Source: Promethearchaeota archaeon
GTDB taxonomy: Archaea; Asgardarchaeota; Lokiarchaeia; Sigyniarchaeales; SOKP01
DNA: 41,301 nt
Direction: 5' to 3'
Assembly: GCA_020343655.1 (NCBI GenBank)
Contig: CP070805.1
Coordinates: 1,520,717 to 1,562,017, forward strand
The notes beneath the pieces are model-generated. The model saw nothing but the letters and a program-made list of their open reading frames with translations, had not been told where the DNA came from and did not search any database. Positions 1-39,606 of the stretch are shown here, in pieces; position 1 is the first letter of the stretch, and every line of letters starts with the position of its first letter. The position numbers and the translations under genes are program-made.

Positions 1-282
1 TTCATCTTCTTTAGATTTTAATTCAACGTAAAATCCTATACTTTTTTCCGAGAGAACGTTCTTATCTAATCTTTCTTCTAATTTATCTTTAGTACTATAA
101 ATTTGGAAATATGTAGGAATCTCATGATCTTTTGTATAAAGAAATACACGCCCCATTTTTTCAAATTCATTAAATGTTTCTTTTGAGACTAAAAAGTGTA
201 AAATATTATGATTAAACGCTTCTTGAACTAATTCTTTAAAATCTCTACTTTTAGATTCAAAGTTCAATATTATTTTTTTCAT
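1..282 (-). CDS. 3-dehydroquinate synthase II, N-terminal part (cut by window edge)
   Basis: This is the first 94 codons of a minus-strand gene that runs off the left edge. The reading frame is open throughout from an ATG at 282. The translation begins MKKIILNFESK and ends at the edge with YVELKSKEDE. In archaeal type II 3-dehydroquinate synthases (MJ1249 family) the same region carries a similar strand followed by an ESKEDE-like motif. These enzymes work with a 2-amino-3,7-dideoxyheptulosonate synthase to make 3-dehydroquinate in the archaeal shikimate pathway. The family is usually 320-380 residues, so roughly three quarters lies outside the window. The next gene is divergent, and the 151-bp gap between them must carry both promoters. 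The assignment rests on similarity of the N-terminal domain only, since the catalytic part is not visible. Confidence 0.7.
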   Translation of the reverse strand, partial: MKKIILNFESKSRDFKELVQEAFNHNILHFLVSKETFNEFEKMGRVFLYTKDHEIPTYFQIYSTKDKLEERLDKNVLSEKSIGFYVELKSKEDE

Positions 283-433
283 ATTTCCTTAAATATCGGT
301 CCATATAAATTTTTTTGATATGAATTATTTTATTATATTATATCAAATATTATTAAATTTTTAAGTTAGAAAAATCATATAATTCATAAATTAGATAATA
401 TTAAATTAAAGGTCTAAATGGAGTAATGATAAA

Positions 434-1084
434 ATGGGTTTAAAGAAGAAACTCTTTCCACGTAAAGGTAAAGAAAAAGATGACTTAGTTGCTAAAGCTA
501 AAGGTCATATCCATAAATTAAATTTAATGAATAAAAATTATAATAGACGGGCTGAAATAAGTCGTAAAAATGCAAAAATCGCATTGAAACGAGGGGAAAA
601 AGATCGTGCAAAAAATTATCTTATACAATATAAGGCTTATCAAGCCAAAGTTGACCGTGCTACTAACATTAGAGGAAAGATTGAACGCCAAATTCAAGCT
701 ATAGAAGAGGGAATGCTTATATCTCAAACAGGGGATGTAATGGGAGGTATAAGAGATGAACTAGAATATATTGCCACAAAAGCATCTCCTGCGAAAGTTG
801 CTGAAATCGCAGAGGATTCTGAAGCATATGTTGCTGAAATTGAAGAAGCAGCAGAAATTTTAGCAGGAGATCCTGAAATTGATCTTGCTATTGATGTTAC
901 AGAAGAATTGAATCAACTTGAAACAGAAATGTTGCTCGATCAAGGTGGGACAATGCCTGAAATTCCTTCAGATGACCTGCAATACATACCAGAGTATGAT
1001 GAATTAGAGGAGGAAGCTGAAGTTAAATCAAAAGAAAAATTAAAAGACGAGATTGATAAGTTAAGAAAGGAATTGGAAGGCTAA
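434..1084 (+). CDS. ESCRT-III (Snf7/CHMP-like) protein
   Basis: The 216-residue protein has the layout of an ESCRT-III subunit. It has a basic N-terminus (MGLKKKLFPRKGK), a long basic alpha-helical hairpin to about residue 100, with the KRGEKDRAKNYLIQYKAYQAKVD stretch resembling the alpha1/alpha2 core of CHMP4/Vps32, and an acidic helical C-terminal half. Residues 174-182 (MPEIPSDDL) resemble the MIM2 motif of CHMP6/Vps20, which binds the MIT domain of Vps4. The last helix (KLKDEIDKLRKEL) is MIM1-like. The family polymerises on membranes for scission and is remodelled by Vps4. The architecture favours the Vps20/32/60 branch of Asgard ESCRT-III. A GGAG element lies 10 nt before the ATG. No Vps4 or ESCRT-II gene is in the window; a zinc-finger/PH-like protein lies 1.2 kb away. 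The family call is firm and the subfamily is inferred. Confidence 0.85.
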   Translation: MGLKKKLFPRKGKEKDDLVAKAKGHIHKLNLMNKNYNRRAEISRKNAKIALKRGEKDRAKNYLIQYKAYQAKVDRATNIRGKIERQIQAIEEGMLISQTGDVMGGIRDELEYIATKASPAKVAEIAEDSEAYVAEIEEAAEILAGDPEIDLAIDVTEELNQLETEMLLDQGGTMPEIPSDDLQYIPEYDELEEEAEVKSKEKLKDEIDKLRKELEG

Positions 1085-2250: not shown

Positions 2251-4200
2251 CTATGTATAAAATCGCTTGTTATCAAAATTTCTGCTACTTCTTTTAAGTT
2301 CTTCAACCTCTTCGAGGTTTTCTTGTAGCGTTTGTATTTTTTTTTCAATGAGATAGATCTCCTTCTGCAAATTCTTGAAAGTCTTGAAGTAATCAACCTC
2401 AGATATAATACCCTGATCAAACTTCGCATCTAATTTTTTCAGGGTTTCTTTTAAACTATATCTTTCTTTACTCAGTTCAGTCATCTTTTCATGTTTTTCC
2501 TTATCTAGTTTGAATAATTTTCGCTTATATCTATAAGAATTATTTGGATGATTAAATTCCGAATCAAACAAATCCGATAAATGATTTCTATTATAATCCT
2601 GGAATATCCTATCATTCTTCAAAAAATAATCATCTTCATTATAACTGTTTATGTTTCCTCCTTGGTTGGGATTATATGGATTTAAAGTGTTAATTAATTC
2701 ATTATCAGAGTTTAATCGTTGGGGATTATAATTTTGAACACAATTTTGTTCATAAGCATTTTGTAAAAAGAATCTATGCTTGTCATTATTATGTGGGTAA
2801 TAGGATGGCATAATTTGAGGATAAGAAGAAGGATGAATAGTTTGTGGAACTCCTAGATCTGGATATGGTCTATATTGTAGAGCCATATTTTCCGGAAGGT
2901 TAAATCGAGGTTGTGCCCGAGAGGCAACATTATTCATTTGGTTGGGGTAAATATTAAAGGGACTAATAAATTGTCTATTATTTAGATGTAAATTTTCATG
3001 AGTTTTATTATACTGACACTTTATACTAAAGAATGAATTAATGCTTTCTTCAATAAAGTTTGTTAATTCATTTAAATCAATATTAATTTTTTGAAGTTTT
3101 TTTGCCGTTTTTACATCATATATTGTAGTTTCATCAAAAGATCTAGCTAGAAGAATGTATTCAATTACTCTAGAAACAGCTTTAGGGGGCAGTGTAAATT
3201 CATATTTCCCATATGTAAACTGAATATAGAGTTTTTTGAATATCTTACCTTTTTCTCTTATTTTTGTTAAATCTTGAACAGGTGCTTTGAATATTAATTC
3301 TTTTTTCTTTTTAATTACACCATATTCATGAATAAATGAAAGATCATAATTAGTAATAAATAATATTCCTTTATCTTTCTTAAATTTTTCGTGGGTGTTC
3401 AACCCATTAGTTAATTTAGCAAGAATGGCATAAACAGGTTTTTCTCCTTCCGCGAGTCTTAATAATTTCTTGTATGTGTTAAAATAATAACTGATCTTTG
3501 CAATAAATTGTAAGTTATTTTCGAAAGTTTTAAAACTCTCATTAAATGTTTGGATATTATTGGTTATAAACTCATCAATAGCATAATGGCTTCTGGATAA
3601 ATTTTCAAAAATTCCTTCAATGATTACTATATTTGAATTTGGTTGGGTGTACGTATCAAAAAAATATTCCTTATTTTGATTTAATTGATGAAAATGAAGA
3701 TTAAGTTTTTCAAATAAAGTATTTTGTATATAAAGAAATAATTTAAAAAGAGCTAATAAATCTGATTCCATTTTAGGAAAGTGATAACATTTATTTGGAG
3801 GATCTCTAACCTCCTTGATTTTAGATTGGAATAAAAATAATTTATCAAGAATTTCTTTTAAAGGATTAATGAATGACCGTGAATCTTTAATTAATTCTAA
3901 AAATCTCTTTTCAAGTTCTTCTTTTTTCTCATATATGTTAATAATTTGATGGGAGCTGCACTTTGGACACGCTGATAAACGTTGATTAATCTTAACTATA
4001 TTCTCGTTTCCACAATCATTACACACTTTCTTTTTTTCAGAGTCTAGAATTTCAATATTTTTTGATTTACAATCTTGACAAATAAAAAAATCAACTTTTT
4101 TTTCATGTAAACAGTCAGAACAACAACTAGTGCCACACTCTTCACAATAATAAGCTAACTTAACATATCTGTGACAAAAACGACAAACTTGATCTGACAT
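2251..4200 (-). CDS. Unrecognised protein: FYVE-like zinc finger, zinc ribbon, PH/GRAM-like region, disordered linker, coiled coil
   Basis: I do not recognise this 649-residue protein as a named family. Residues 6-44 hold four CxxC pairs (C6/C9, C19/C22, C27/C30, C41/C44) with a CEECGTSCCSDC core. That is the spacing of a FYVE-type or related treble-clef cross-brace finger, but it lacks the basic R(R/K)HHCR phosphoinositide-binding motif. A second CxxC/CxxC ribbon lies at residues 60-81. Helical sequence follows, then a beta-rich segment at about 250-355 (KGILFITNYDLSFI onward, ending in an amphipathic helix) that looks like a GRAM/PH-type fold. Residues 410-560 are rich in N, P, Y and Q and are probably disordered. 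The last 80 residues form a charged coiled coil with a SHOCT-like LDAKFDQGIISEVDYF motif. Membrane or ubiquitin-trafficking adaptor work would fit, but this is inference. ATG start; the gene lies downstream of eL33 on the same strand. Confidence 0.6.
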   Translation of the reverse strand: MSDQVCRFCHRYVKLAYYCEECGTSCCSDCLHEKKVDFFICQDCKSKNIEILDSEKKKVCNDCGNENIVKINQRLSACPKCSSHQIINIYEKKEELEKRFLELIKDSRSFINPLKEILDKLFLFQSKIKEVRDPPNKCYHFPKMESDLLALFKLFLYIQNTLFEKLNLHFHQLNQNKEYFFDTYTQPNSNIVIIEGIFENLSRSHYAIDEFITNNIQTFNESFKTFENNLQFIAKISYYFNTYKKLLRLAEGEKPVYAILAKLTNGLNTHEKFKKDKGILFITNYDLSFIHEYGVIKKKKELIFKAPVQDLTKIREKGKIFKKLYIQFTYGKYEFTLPPKAVSRVIEYILLARSFDETTIYDVKTAKKLQKINIDLNELTNFIEESINSFFSIKCQYNKTHENLHLNNRQFISPFNIYPNQMNNVASRAQPRFNLPENMALQYRPYPDLGVPQTIHPSSYPQIMPSYYPHNNDKHRFFLQNAYEQNCVQNYNPQRLNSDNELINTLNPYNPNQGGNINSYNEDDYFLKNDRIFQDYNRNHLSDLFDSEFNHPNNSYRYKRKLFKLDKEKHEKMTELSKERYSLKETLKKLDAKFDQGIISEVDYFKTFKNLQKEIYLIEKKIQTLQENLEEVEELKRSSRNFDNKRFYT

Positions 4201-20725: not shown

Positions 20726-21259
20726 TTAATCTAAAAGCCCTTGTTTCTTTAAAATGGAACGGGTTAGAGTTTCAAAAATCTTTTTATTATTTTCTCCACT
20801 TTTAGATGAAGTTTCAAATAAATAATCGATATTATATTTGTTCTTAAACTCCTCTGCTTGGCTGTATTCAACACTCCTTCGAATATCAGCTAAATCTAAT
20901 TTTTCGCCTACAAGAATAAATATAGGTGAATCAGCATTAATGCTGACAATATTATACCATTCATCTAAGCTGTCGAAGCTAGTCCGACGTGTAATGTCGT
21001 AACATAAGAGGCATCCCACTGCACCGCGTGAATAATTCGGCAAAAAGAGTCGGAATCGTCTTTCTCCCGCAAAATCCCAGATTTGAAGGTTTACCATGGT
21101 ATTTTCGTCGATAAGGAAACTCTCAACAGCGAGATCTGTTCCTATTGTAATTTTTTGTGGAATGAACTGTCCTGTTGCCAATCTCTGCACCATGGTACTT
21201 TTCCCAACCCCTCCGTCGCCAACAACTAGTATCTTGAAGAGAAGTTTTCGACTCAACAT
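20726..21259 (-). CDS. Rab/Ras-like small GTPase with variant G3 and G4 motifs
   Basis: The 177-residue protein is a stand-alone Ras-superfamily G domain, closest in pattern to Rab. G1 is GDGGVGKST (residues 14-22) and the switch I threonine region is KITIGTD. G3 is WDFAGERRF (61-69), with Glu66 at the position of the catalytic Gln of Ras (Gln61). G4 is GEKLD in place of GNKxD, so the base-specific Asn is Glu. G5 is ETSSKSG. Both substitutions are clear in the codons (GAA in each case). The C-terminus (SILKKQGLLD) has no prenylation cysteine, as is usual in Asgard archaea. Function is unknown; eukaryotic Rabs direct membrane traffic. It lies on the minus strand in its own unit. The altered motifs suggest slow hydrolysis or altered nucleotide selectivity. 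Confidence 0.9.
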   Translation of the reverse strand: MLSRKLLFKILVVGDGGVGKSTMVQRLATGQFIPQKITIGTDLAVESFLIDENTMVNLQIWDFAGERRFRLFLPNYSRGAVGCLLCYDITRRTSFDSLDEWYNIVSINADSPIFILVGEKLDLADIRRSVEYSQAEEFKNKYNIDYLFETSSKSGENNKKIFETLTRSILKKQGLLD

Positions 21260-23790: not shown

Positions 23791-25050
23791 TTGAGTAAAT
23801 TTCCTACTTTCCAACAAATTAAACATGATCTAGTGAATAACAAGATAACAAGAGCAGAAGCCAATGCGTTGTTAGTCTCATTGATAGATAACTGTGAAAT
23901 TTATCATTACAGAGTAAAATATATCAGAGAATTTGGAGAGATTATCATTAGAACTGAAAAGAACTTCCAAATTCTCGAGAACTACTTAATCTCAGATGAA
24001 AATCCAATAATAAGAAGCATTGCTGCAAAAATTATTTTGCTTAAATTTACGAAATTATGTATAAATCCATTGAAATGGGTAATAAATAATGACAAATCAG
24101 TCTATGTCTTAAAAAATCTTATCAATTTATTGGAGCATTCTGATATAAATTGTTCTAAATTGTTATTAAAAATCGTATTCAATAGGCTCACTGAAATTTA
24201 CGAAGTTATTCCAAAAGAAGCACAATTTTTAATAGATTTAGAGTATGAATTGAATCCTGATTTCGAGATTGGGTTTTTTAGGCCTGTAAAAAAGGATAAA
24301 AATATAGTAGCGCTGGATTTTGCAGGAAGGAAATTGAAAAGTTTGCCATTTTCAATTGGTGCTTTATCATTTTTAAAGCATTTAAATTTATGGGATAATT
24401 ATTTAACTACCTTACCCAAATCAATCGAATCACTTTCAAATTTGCAATTTTTATACTTAGATTGGAATAAATTTAAAATTATACCAGATATACAATGGGA
24501 TAAGCTCAAGCTACTTGAAAAATTAAGCTTTACTAACAATCCTGAAATAAAAAAAATTCCTGAAGCACTATTTAAGCTAATCAAACAAAACTTTGTGAAA
24601 AAATATAGAGATGAAGGAGTTATCACGGATGAAGCTCCAGTATTAGGATTGTTAGAAATTCTTACTGGAATGAAACTAAATAAAATTCAGAAAAATGAAA
24701 AAATTTCTAAATTATATGCATGTGGTTATAGATTAAACACAGAAGGTAACATTATTGGAATTTATTTATATGGTTATTATAGTTTTCAAATTAATTTTAT
24801 TCCCAAACAAATATGTTCCTTAAAATTTCTTGAAGAATTAATATTAAGGGATCAGAATATAAGATTAATTCCAGATTCTATCAAAGATCTTAATGCCTTA
24901 AAACGTTTAGATTTAAGACGCAATAGTATCCAATTTATTCCAAAATCCCTAATAAAATTAAAATCATTAGAATTTTTAGATTTGGGAGAGAACAAAATAA
25001 AAGAATTACCTAAATCAATAAAATTATCTAATATTGAACTTTGGCTATAG
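23791..25050 (+). CDS. Leucine-rich-repeat protein with N-terminal helical domain
   Basis: The 419-residue protein has an all-helical N-terminal region to about residue 165, which looks HEAT-like (ENPIIRSIAAKIILLKF). LRR block 1 follows at about 170-260 (FSIGALSFLKHLNLWDNYLTTLPKSIESLSNLQFLYLDWN). An intervening module at about 275-340 contains VLGLLEILTGMKL and IIGIYLYGYYSF. LRR block 2 runs from about 345 to the end. The two blocks separated by this module recall the expanded cytoplasmic LRR family of Lokiarchaeia; such repeats bind proteins. No signal peptide or membrane helix is seen. The start is TTG at 23791: a TAA at 23776 closes the frame, and the residues after the TTG (MSKFPTFQQIKHDLVNNKITRAEA) look like a natural N-terminus. 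Confidence 0.85.
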   Translation: MSKFPTFQQIKHDLVNNKITRAEANALLVSLIDNCEIYHYRVKYIREFGEIIIRTEKNFQILENYLISDENPIIRSIAAKIILLKFTKLCINPLKWVINNDKSVYVLKNLINLLEHSDINCSKLLLKIVFNRLTEIYEVIPKEAQFLIDLEYELNPDFEIGFFRPVKKDKNIVALDFAGRKLKSLPFSIGALSFLKHLNLWDNYLTTLPKSIESLSNLQFLYLDWNKFKIIPDIQWDKLKLLEKLSFTNNPEIKKIPEALFKLIKQNFVKKYRDEGVITDEAPVLGLLEILTGMKLNKIQKNEKISKLYACGYRLNTEGNIIGIYLYGYYSFQINFIPKQICSLKFLEELILRDQNIRLIPDSIKDLNALKRLDLRRNSIQFIPKSLIKLKSLEFLDLGENKIKELPKSIKLSNIELWL

Positions 25051-27553: not shown

Positions 27554-28300
27554 ATGCCAAAACTTCAGAAATATGAGCAAAAAATTCGCAGATATAAAGA
27601 AAAATTAAAAAAATTAATTATACGGATAGGAATTTCTTACCCTAAAGAATTTGAATTAAAAGATGAAATATCAGAAAAGCTTTTATTACCTTGTCATTTA
27701 GGAATTCTATTTTTTGGAGATTTTGATATAACTTTATTTGAAAAAATAAAATTTCGATTAAATGAAATTTATGATTCTTATTTTTTTGAAATTAGAAATT
27801 TAGGAGGCTATAATTTTCCGATCAAACTATTTTCTAAAGGTGTGAAAAAAGAGTACAGAGAAATGAAAAAGTCTTCTGATAAAATTAAAATTCATCCAAC
27901 TAACAAATTCTACCAAATACTGATAAACAAAAGGATCGAAGAAAACCTTGGAATGATAATTGCAATTACTGACCTTCCTATATATTCAAGCAACGATGAT
28001 AATATCTTATTTTTGTTTGGAGAAACTCACTTAAAGCATCGATGTTGTGTAATATCCTTGTTAAAATTAAAAGAACAGTTCTATAATAGACCTAAAAATC
28101 ATCATCTTTTTGAACAGCGAGTTATTAAAGAAGTTGTTCATGAGATTGGTCATTTAATTATCGGCCCTGATCATTGCCTTAATAAGTCATGCGTAATGAG
28201 ATTTTCAAATGATGTAAAAGAAATTGATAAGAAGTTATTTAATTTTTGTAATGAATGCAAAATAAAATTAATCAATGTTAGAGAAAGATATAACTTTTAG
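27554..28300 (+). CDS. Archaemetzincin (M54 metalloprotease) with shifted zinc-motif spacing
   Basis: The 248-residue protein carries the archaemetzincin zinc signature near its C-terminus: His196-E-I-G-His200, then Gly204, His207 and Cys208, four residues, Cys213-V-Met215, and Cys232-x2-Cys235. The family pattern is HExxHxxGxxHCx4CxM followed by about 17 residues and CxxC. Here three residues rather than two separate His200 from the glycine, and 16 precede the last CxxC. MRFSN after the Met is typical. The N-terminal 130 residues are less conserved and rich in Lys. Archaeal family members are usually somewhat shorter (about 180-200). The role is unknown in any archaeon. The ATG follows a long AT-rich region divergent from the presenilin gene. 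Confidence 0.92.
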   Translation: MPKLQKYEQKIRRYKEKLKKLIIRIGISYPKEFELKDEISEKLLLPCHLGILFFGDFDITLFEKIKFRLNEIYDSYFFEIRNLGGYNFPIKLFSKGVKKEYREMKKSSDKIKIHPTNKFYQILINKRIEENLGMIIAITDLPIYSSNDDNILFLFGETHLKHRCCVISLLKLKEQFYNRPKNHHLFEQRVIKEVVHEIGHLIIGPDHCLNKSCVMRFSNDVKEIDKKLFNFCNECKIKLINVRERYNF

Positions 28301-30542: not shown

Positions 30543-31682
30543 TTAAAAATTCGACGAAGAAGGATTGGGTCAGATAATATAGAAAGTAAATTCATTGAAA
30601 AATTTCGGGCAGTCATAGATGATCACACTTCACTTTCAATCTATAATAAAAAGAAAAGATCGTTTTGTGTTATTCGAAGAGATTTAGCAAAATCGTATGA
30701 GATCGAGGTTGATGCATCGGAAGCCCCAATTTTAAATAAATTGCTAAACGATCCAGAACCATATGAAAGTTCCATAGCAGATTTGAAAATTCTAGAGGAA
30801 GAAATATTTCCGATAAATACAGCTTTTCAGAAGGTTTTTGGAACAGACAAAGAACTTAAATTAAATTCTATTAGATTAGCCATTGGTAGTAATTATAATG
30901 ATTATGTTTCAATTGGAGAAAACGATTTGATTAAATTTGATGTAAAGCCAACCCTTAGTGGATTAATGAATTTTATCAAAGAAAACAAGGAAAGTATTTT
31001 AGGATTTTTAGATTGCGAATATATAAGTGAAGAAGGTAACGTTATCTATCTAAATTGTGGTAAAAAAAATTTATCTGAAAATATTTATTCTATTAAACTA
31101 TTAATCCTTGCTTCTATGCAACAAAGGGGATTTTTTCTTCAACAAGAACATAAGTATTATGGTCTTCAACTTTATATTATTATCGAATCTAGAAATGCAA
31201 ATGATATTAAATTATTTGAGTTATTAAAAGAATTAAATATCGATTGGGAATTAATATTTTTTAGAAGAAAACTAGCTATACATGATTGGACAGAAATTGA
31301 ATGTGAGAAGAATTCCGAAAATCTTAAGAGTTTTCTTCGTGCTAAATTTGAGACTCTAAATTATTTTGATGTAAATAATATACTACGTTTAATAATTAAG
31401 AACCAATTACCTTTTAAGGTAGCTAATAAAATGGGTTCATTATTATATAGAATGAAAAATGAACGAGCTATTCGATTTCAAGATAAAAAATTTCAAGAAA
31501 GCCCATATCAAGAAGATCAAATTCAACAGGATGAATATTCTATTACTCTTAAGAAAGCAGAGGTTGCTGCTGCTGCTAAACTCGCTTGTACATACTTGGG
31601 AATTAAGAAAAAGATTAAATTTGACCGAGATATTTCTAACGATGAGATACTAAAATATGAAGAAGAATTAACAAATATGTAA
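30543..31682 (+). CDS. Unrecognised protein with unresolved 5' end
   Basis: The frame is open from just after a TGA (30540-30542) to the stop at 31682. The first conventional start is a TTG at 30741 (313 aa), but the 66 codons before it read like real protein (SDNIESKFIEKFRAVIDDH, SFCVIRRDLAKSYEIEVDASEAP). No ATG, GTG or TTG lies in them. An ATG at 30527 with a well-placed TATA element opens 16 codons (MDFRLIKNSTKKDWVR) in the neighbouring frame, ending in TAA at 30575. Skipping one T there would join it to the main frame. The protein is mixed alpha/beta with no motif I know. Residues before and after the TTG faintly recall an MCM N-terminal domain, but no ATPase follows. A role is not assigned. 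Confidence 0.6.
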   Translation, partial: LKIRRRRIGSDNIESKFIEKFRAVIDDHTSLSIYNKKKRSFCVIRRDLAKSYEIEVDASEAPILNKLLNDPEPYESSIADLKILEEEIFPINTAFQKVFGTDKELKLNSIRLAIGSNYNDYVSIGENDLIKFDVKPTLSGLMNFIKENKESILGFLDCEYISEEGNVIYLNCGKKNLSENIYSIKLLILASMQQRGFFLQQEHKYYGLQLYIIIESRNANDIKLFELLKELNIDWELIFFRRKLAIHDWTEIECEKNSENLKSFLRAKFETLNYFDVNNILRLIIKNQLPFKVANKMGSLLYRMKNERAIRFQDKKFQESPYQEDQIQQDEYSITLKKAEVAAAAKLACTYLGIKKKIKFDRDISNDEILKYEEELTNM

Positions 31683-38443: not shown

Positions 38444-38649
38444 TTTTTAACCATTCCACCTAGTTATTTCATAAAATATTTTTTTTAATTTAAGTTAATT
38501 AAAAATTCTATTTAATTGAATCGTCGTGAGATCAGTTTCTTGTAATATTAAATTTTCTTTTAATAATTAGAAAAAATTAAATAAAAATTAAAGTATAAAA
38601 AATATATTGAAGATAAAGAAATATTAAAATCAAAATCGGTTTGCATTTA

Positions 38650-39606
38650 ATGAAAATTCTCTTATTTGGACCTGCCGGAGCGGGTAAGACATCACTTATG
38701 CGAACAACTTGTTTAGGATACAATTTCATGAAAGTTTTAAACTTAAAACCAACTAAAGGTGTATCAAGAGAAAATTTTATCTTTCGCGGTATTATGGAGC
38801 TCAATGTGTGGGATCTTGGTGGACAGGAGAGGTATCTCGAGCGTTATTTCTCTGAATCTCAACGTGAACTAATCTTTTCAGAAGCTACAACAGCCGTTTT
38901 TATGGTTGATTCTGCTGCGGTCGATCCTGAGGTACGAGAGATATTTGATAAATTTTTGAAGTTTTTATTAGAATTTTCCCCTACTATTGATATGATCTAT
39001 GTTCTATTAAATAAAATTGATTTACAAGAATCTGATGAAGATAAATATTATGAAATCTTAACAAAGGATTTAAACGGTGGCTTAATGGCAAAATTATCAT
39101 TCACTCCTGTATCTGTTAAAGAAGGCAGTGCTCAACATAGGTTAATTGAAATTCTAGACTATGAGATTCAAAAGAATACTTTATCAATGCAACGTTTAGG
39201 AAAAATTCGACATTTACTCGATGAGCTAAAAATCAATACTTTATCAGAATATCTTTTATTTAACCAACCTGATGGATTATTAATTTCCTCTACATTTGGT
39301 AAATTTGAATCAAAACCACTACAATTTATGAAATTCGAAATAGGTACTTTAGATTCTAATATATATAGTATTTATCAACAAATTATGGAGCTTCAAAATG
39401 TATCTAACCTTTCTCCCCTTTCTTTATCTACTATTGTCTATGAATCAGAGAATTGTTGGATTTTAGTGAAAGAAGTTAGTAATGGAGCAGTTCTGATGGC
39501 AGTAACAAGAAATAAGCAGCCTGAAGTTTTTTCTGGTGTTATGAATGCGCTAAATGGCGATGCATTTAAAAGTTTGAAATTATATTTAAAATCTTCTGAA
39601 TTTTAA
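38650..39606 (+). CDS. Rag/Gtr- or Arf-like GTPase with C-terminal roadblock/longin-like domain
   Basis: The 318-residue protein has a small-GTPase domain to about residue 175: G1 GPAGAGKTS, a switch I threonine in KPTKGVS, G3 WDLGGQERY with the catalytic Gln kept, and G4 LNKIDL. An additional domain of about 140 residues follows, whose pattern (LLDELKINTLSEYLLFNQPDGLLISST ... CWILVKEVSNGAVLMAV) resembles a roadblock/LC7 or longin fold. RagA/Gtr1 proteins have the same order, a G domain followed by a roadblock domain. An in-frame TTG at 38641 would add three residues; the ATG at 38650 gives the usual MKILLFGP start. Function is unknown in archaea. Confidence 0.85.
   Translation: MKILLFGPAGAGKTSLMRTTCLGYNFMKVLNLKPTKGVSRENFIFRGIMELNVWDLGGQERYLERYFSESQRELIFSEATTAVFMVDSAAVDPEVREIFDKFLKFLLEFSPTIDMIYVLLNKIDLQESDEDKYYEILTKDLNGGLMAKLSFTPVSVKEGSAQHRLIEILDYEIQKNTLSMQRLGKIRHLLDELKINTLSEYLLFNQPDGLLISSTFGKFESKPLQFMKFEIGTLDSNIYSIYQQIMELQNVSNLSPLSLSTIVYESENCWILVKEVSNGAVLMAVTRNKQPEVFSGVMNALNGDAFKSLKLYLKSSEF

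Follow-up and report, generated by a model that had tools for sequence, protein, structure and literature searches.

Organization of the locus and of the encoded protein

The stretch of DNA analysed here, referred to as the window, comprises 41,301 nucleotides (positions 1,520,717–1,562,017 of the single-contig, 2.27-Mb genome of a Promethearchaeota archaeon). Close to its beginning, on the reverse strand, lies the gene for a protein of 649 residues, here called the Znr-PH-SB protein, which is predicted to be a subunit of the ESCRT-I type. The gene, its domains and the neighbouring ESCRT-III gene are listed in Table 1. The genome itself (G000) has an estimated completeness of 82% and is smaller than nearly all of its congeners (3.1–4.7 Mb), so absences in it have to be read cautiously. 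Among named relatives, MAGs of Candidatus Lokiarchaeota are the closest to it.

Table 1. Position of the Znr-PH-SB gene, its domains and the adjacent ESCRT-III gene in the window
Feature	Residues	Window position	Strand	Basis
ESCRT-III (Snf7) gene, convergent neighbour		434..1084	(+)	Snf7, 45.5 bits (cut-off 27.3)
Member of the Znr-PH-SB family (649 aa), a predicted subunit of the ESCRT-I type		2251..4200	(-)	ORF and homologues
Predicted B-box-like cross-brace zinc unit (C6/9, C19/22, C27/30, C41/44)	6–44	4069..4185	(-)	Invariant Cys, Pfam
Zinc ribbon (C60/63, C78/81)	60–81	3958..4023	(-)	Invariant Cys; zinc-ribbon Pfam models, sub-threshold
Helical bundle	89–242	3475..3936	(-)	AlphaFold2 model, pLDDT mostly >90
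PH/GRAM-like domain	250–362	3115..3453	(-)	AlphaFold2, Foldseek, Pfam of members
Disordered N/P/Y/Q-rich linker	411–555	2536..2970	(-)	pLDDT <50
Predicted steadiness box, two-helix hairpin	556–640	2281..2535	(-)	Vps23_core, PDB profile search, hhalign

The AlphaFold2 model of the whole protein has a mean pLDDT of 76.6. It contains, in order, a confidently predicted N-terminal zinc region, the helical bundle, a β-domain (residues 255–353), a disordered stretch (residues 411–558) and a terminal hairpin formed by two helices (residues 556–595 and 601–640). A search of solved structures with the single sequence returned no match, and most Pfam matches of the window's own protein score below the curated cut-offs. 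The full-length model showed similarity to DH-PH proteins in Foldseek, with an rmsd of >16 Å over long alignments; this similarity was put down to the PH domain and the helices preceding it.

The linker, whose disorder and N/P/Y/Q bias a preliminary description of this DNA had already pointed out, consists to 27% of asparagine and glutamine. It spans 124–254 residues in the representatives of GTDB families f1–f3 and in most of f4, and mostly 22–65 residues elsewhere, the long form being mainly confined to the order of the window's own organism. PTAP-type motifs, which would bind UEV domains, were sought in the linker: there are none in the window protein, and they occur sporadically in other members.

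The N-terminal zinc modules and the PH domain

The four CxxC pairs and the following CxxC ribbon proposed in that description are borne out by the homologues. All 12 cysteines (6, 9, 19, 22, 27, 30, 41, 44, 60, 63, 78 and 81) are invariant in a 40-sequence alignment of diverse homologues reaching down to 22% identity, and the pairs are therefore not due to chance; they would provide three potential zinc sites. The first eight, arranged in four pairs, correspond to the zinc ligands of FYVE domains, a pattern which is common to B-box and RING units, and the unit had been called FYVE-like on this account. This assignment did not survive the comparison with profiles. The zf-B_box model (PF00643) matches 38 of the 40 members, with a best E-value of 5.5e-6 and the window's own score below the cut-off, and an ANCHR-like B-box (PF22586) matches 16 of them (best E-value 9e-7), against three weak matches to FYVE (best E=0.0012). 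In addition, the lipid-binding motifs of FYVE domains (WxxD, R(R/K)HHCR and RVC) are absent from the sequence and the alignment, LAYYCE standing in place of RRHHCR, in agreement with the earlier remark that the basic phosphoinositide motif is missing. The FYVE assignment was rejected on the profile counts and the missing motifs; judged from its sequence, the N-terminal unit looks B-box-like, with a putative B-box topology.

The PH/GRAM-like β-segment of the preliminary description was confirmed by structure prediction. When modelled alone, residues 250–362 reach a pLDDT of 88.3 and fold into a seven-strand PH domain with a C-terminal helix, and the best Foldseek matches in the PDB are PH domains (Exo84, Lam6, the Dbs PH domain and Sec3). 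Among the PH segments of the members, Pfam detected bPH_3 in 22 of 42, above the cut-off in the homologue L041, GRAM in 12 of 42 and Vps36_ESCRT-II in 8 of 42. A profile of these domains, searched against PDB sequences, placed the GLUE domain of yeast Vps36 on top, at an E-value of only 0.07, and no Vps36 structure appears among the best 50 Foldseek matches. The domain is positively charged, with a mean net charge of +6 in the members and +7 in the window protein, a feature compatible with contact with a membrane.

The C-terminal steadiness box

The C-terminal region, previously described as a coiled coil, is indeed helical; at the level of sequence, what it matches is specifically the two-helix steadiness box of ESCRT-I and not a generic coiled coil. 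The Pfam model of this module, Vps23_core, matches residues 566–618 with an E-value of 0.0043 when the full protein is searched and of 1.1e-4 when the segment is searched alone. A whole-genome scan with Vps23_core only, a model built independently of this protein, gave a single match in the window's genome, the Znr-PH-SB gene, and in the relatives the match is mostly its orthologue; one family member, from genome G051, passes the curated cut-off (29.6 bits). When a profile of 39 C-termini was run against 177,635 PDB sequences, yeast Vps23 (STP22) ranked first (E=9e-7, 3.4e-6 and 5.9e-6), followed by human TSG101 (3.8e-4); human Vps37B was found at E=0.08. Profile–profile alignment with hhalign gave 98.6% against the C-termini of Asgard Vps23 proteins of the UEV type and 95.4% against the N-terminal hairpin of Vps28, compared with 1.2% for a helical control, the neighbouring ESCRT-III proteins. 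A few family C-termini match SHOCT or ABC_tran_CTD. SHOCT and a generic coiled coil were discarded as identities for this region, since SHOCT is found in only 3 of the 39 members and the PDB search with the profile selects Vps23/TSG101.

The steadiness box is a helical hairpin of about 60 residues that has look-alikes, so a sequence match by itself is not decisive. In two genomes, the C-terminal hairpins of ABC-transporter ATPases (L187:7376-8278 (+) and L188:7645-8541 (+)) closely resemble the module; the family profile finds two of them at E-values of 7e-10 and 3e-8. A similar hairpin is inserted in an RNA polymerase subunit (L172:1-2085 (-)). Together these hairpins are a warning against steadiness-box calls made from sequence alone.

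Linkage to ESCRT genes and distribution in Asgard archaea

The ESCRT-III gene ends 1,167 bp from the Znr-PH-SB gene, in a convergent orientation and with a MetE-like gene between the two, which substantiates the 1.2-kb spacing given earlier. With two ESCRT-III genes in 2.27 Mb, proximity within 5 kb would arise by chance in about 1% of cases per genome. The order ESCRT-III, (MetE-like), Znr-PH-SB gene and L35Ae is widely conserved in the window's family. In families f2, f4, f8, f10, f13, f21, f22 and f27 the gene is convergent with ESCRT-III, often at less than 150 bp. At five further loci (L137, L190, L183, L184 and L193) it lies within a cluster with Vps4, Vps25, Vps22, Vps28 and Vps23, with no Vps23 call in the cluster of L193; Vps25 (PF05871) and Vps22/EAP30 (PF04157) are identified above their cut-offs. 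A survey of the homologues across Asgard genomes, suggested in the preliminary description as a check, found this neighbourhood to be conserved: of the 17 GTDB families that could be assessed, having one or more loci that extend ≥3 kb downstream, 13 have an ESCRT gene at a distance of no more than 8 kb. No ESCRT gene was found within that distance in f5, f7, f17 and f20.

Also adjacent, at window positions 1-283 (-) and at L068:14559-14999, is a gene for 3-dehydroquinate synthase II (DHQS), which encodes about 371 residues in relatives and is represented by an ORF of 146 residues in the window's genome, perhaps through a frameshift or an assembly error.

Homologues of the Znr-PH-SB protein are present in 55 of 58 relatives. 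Across 228 Asgard genomes, the family profile matches in 214 at E≤0.001, many of the weaker matches being confined to a steadiness box in some other protein, and strong matches (E<1e-20) occur in about 156. Full-length homologues span most of the sampled phylum, including divergent members in f14, f15 and f17 (hhalign 99.9%, E=3e-31, 380 columns). Another, in f18 (97.2%, E=3.7e-11), is encoded inside an ESCRT cluster between Vps22 and Vps28; the profile search of whole genomes did not pick it up, and it came to light through synteny alone. A search with the alignment of divergent members (A7) found no match in 14 genomes devoid of a clear member, a negative that is not decisive. No member was detected in family f9, in the closed and 98% complete genome G056, by searches that are able to miss divergent members; this genome, presumably that of an Odinarchaeota (Odinarchaeum), has Vps23, Vps28, Vps22, Vps25, Vps4 and ESCRT-III. 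Its ESCRT cluster also contains, directly upstream of Vps23, a gene for a coiled-coil protein of 150 residues (L064:6945-7397 (+)).

A predicted subunit of ESCRT-I

By its architecture, the Znr-PH-SB protein belongs to a family already named Znr_PH_CC_SB or Znr_CC_PH_SB (asCOG cog.011556), for which a role in ESCRT-I and association of the PH domain with the membrane have been predicted (Makarova et al. 2024, mBio; PMC10936438). That family is restricted to Asgard archaea, is encoded among ESCRT genes and combines zinc modules, a PH domain, a helical or coiled-coil region and a C-terminal steadiness box; the window protein has the three potential zinc sites, the PH domain, the steadiness box and the ESCRT linkage. 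Because the same architecture had thus been named, the earlier statement that no named prokaryotic family has this order, and that the protein is undescribed, does not stand. What does stand of the membrane-trafficking component proposed there is a multidomain protein with zinc modules and a PH domain, tied to ESCRT by conserved gene linkage; its FYVE domain and its novelty do not. Two differences from the published description were found: the first zinc unit is B-box-like here, where three Zn ribbons were reported, and the family, which includes divergent members in f14–f18, extends here over most of the phylum as sampled, where several lineages were reported (PMC10936438). The B-box assignment, these divergent members and the idea of a third hairpin, in the position of Vps37, are the new elements of this work. 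A search of the literature yielded no experiment on the family.

Computation shows the domains, the homology of the hairpin and the linkage to ESCRT genes; beyond these, we infer membership of a complex, binding to membranes and a ligand for the zinc modules: the protein is probably a subunit of the ESCRT-I type. To form the headpiece, its C-terminal hairpin would dock onto its homologous counterparts at the N-terminus of Vps28 and, in genomes that have it, in Vps23. Attachment of the complex to the membrane, directly or through a membrane protein, would fall to the PH domain, and the binding of a partner, which may be cargo, ubiquitin or a further ESCRT subunit, to the B-box and zinc ribbon. 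Scission would follow by way of ESCRT-II and, after it, of the ESCRT-III/Vps4 encoded next to the gene. Against this reading count the look-alikes of the hairpin, the four families in which no ESCRT gene lies nearby and the mostly sub-threshold Pfam matches of the window's own protein.

The position taken in the headpiece may, tentatively, be that of the third subunit, the slot of eukaryotic Vps37, in which case the family would provide Asgard ESCRT-I with its missing third hairpin, along with a PH membrane anchor. In the Lokiarchaeal family f1, where no canonical Vps23 is seen and the Vps23 profile mostly finds the Znr-PH-SB C-terminus, this protein would carry the only Vps23-type steadiness box that can be detected. 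The window's genome encodes Vps28 at positions 748167-748715. Canonical Vps23 and a family member coexist in one cluster (L137, L190 and L184), from which the family would add a third steadiness-box hairpin to those of Vps23 and Vps28, the two eukaryotic partners of Vps37. Also counted in favour are G056, with Vps23 and Vps28 and no detected member, and the complex of a Vps23 dimer with one Vps28 reported from Odinarchaeum (Hatano et al. 2022; PMC9192718). According to the same study, Asgard archaea have no clear Vps37, Vps37 is a homologue of Vps23, and Lokiarchaea have a freestanding steadiness-box protein for which a possible interaction with Vps28, and a two-hybrid interaction with Vps22, were described. 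The resemblance to Vps37 itself consists of the proposed third hairpin and the weak match to human Vps37B; no sequence match is significant, and the Vps37 model Mod_r gave none in the protein or among the matches listed for the C-terminal segments. Vps37 is not known to carry PH or zinc modules.

A comparable, rather low probability attaches to the idea that in Lokiarchaea the protein replaces Vps23, its zinc modules having assumed the role of the UEV domain in recognizing cargo. With Vps23/TSG101 it shares the steadiness box, the match also taking in the end of the stalk; it differs in having zinc modules and a PH domain instead of a UEV, for which no match was found in the protein or, at E≤0.1, anywhere in the window's genome. 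In the Lokiarchaeal family f1, the Asgard Vps23 profile found no UEV-stalk-SB protein, and its best match in most genomes is the Znr-PH-SB C-terminus (model positions about 163–249), covering stalk and steadiness box. The UEV-like matches in f1 lie in proteins the size of an E2 and in an RWD/RING-like protein of 550 residues. Against replacement, Lokiarchaeal UEV proteins are reported to bind Vps28 (Hatano et al. 2022; PMC9192718), and other lineages have clusters that hold both Vps23 and a member, so that replacement does not apply to the entire family.

It is unlikely, to a slightly greater degree, that the protein substitutes for Vps36, the PH and zinc modules doing the job of the yeast GLUE domain and its zinc fingers in tethering ESCRT-II to the membrane and to ESCRT-I, with the steadiness box as the plug. 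Asgard genomes are reported to be devoid of full-length Vps36 (Hatano et al. 2022; PMC9192718), the same analogy of the PH domain was drawn by Makarova et al. (2024; PMC10936438), and a PH fold with zinc modules in an ESCRT protein, together with the profile matches to Vps36 given above, fits this reading. However, neither the AlphaFold2 model nor Pfam reveals the pair of winged helices that defines ESCRT-II subunits, the zinc modules are N-terminal rather than inserted in the PH domain, GLUE is matched by fewer members than bPH_3 or GRAM, and other PH domains lead the Foldseek ranking. A B-box/coiled-coil scaffold unrelated to ESCRT, with a hairpin that merely resembles the steadiness box, could be imagined from the ABC-transporter look-alikes, but the top matches are specifically Vps23/TSG101 and the linkage to ESCRT genes is phylum-wide, which leaves it with little probability. 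Even less credit is given to a phosphoinositide adaptor of FYVE type, akin to ESCRT-0, the reading suggested by the FYVE-like spacing of the preliminary description: the cysteine spacing and the three weak FYVE matches speak for it, whereas the absence of WxxD and RRHHCR, the B-box matches and an ESCRT-I module at the C-terminus speak against.

If the third-hairpin reading is true, a heterotrimeric ESCRT-I headpiece would predate eukaryotes, and the Vps23 homodimer with Vps28 in Odinarchaeum would be a secondary state after loss of the Znr-PH-SB protein. The three-hairpin ESCRT-I would then have arisen in Asgard archaea, contrary to a suggestion made in 2022 that Vps37 appeared late (PMC9192718), and the protein would be a candidate for the membrane anchor of archaeal ESCRT-I. 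If it is merely one more ESCRT-I adaptor, the analysis gives a known, unstudied family a sharper anatomy (B-box, not ribbons) and a wider range.

Other observations

UEV-profile matches recur in proteins of about 550 residues in many Lokiarchaeal f1 genomes. One of 551 residues (L199:6031-7686 (+)) seems to contain UEV/RWD-type domains in repeated copies, with a RING-like cluster of cysteines after them at the C-terminus, and resembles the layout of FANCL-type ubiquitin ligases.

Elsewhere in the window, a protein of 313 residues (30741-31682 (+)) has no Pfam match at E≤0.01. The window also encodes a leucine-rich-repeat protein (23791-25050 (+)), an M54 (archaemetzincin-type) peptidase (27554-28300 (+)) and two GTPases recognized above the Pfam cut-offs, a Ras-family small GTPase (20726-21259 (-)) and a Gtr1/RagA-like GTPase (38641-39606 (+)).
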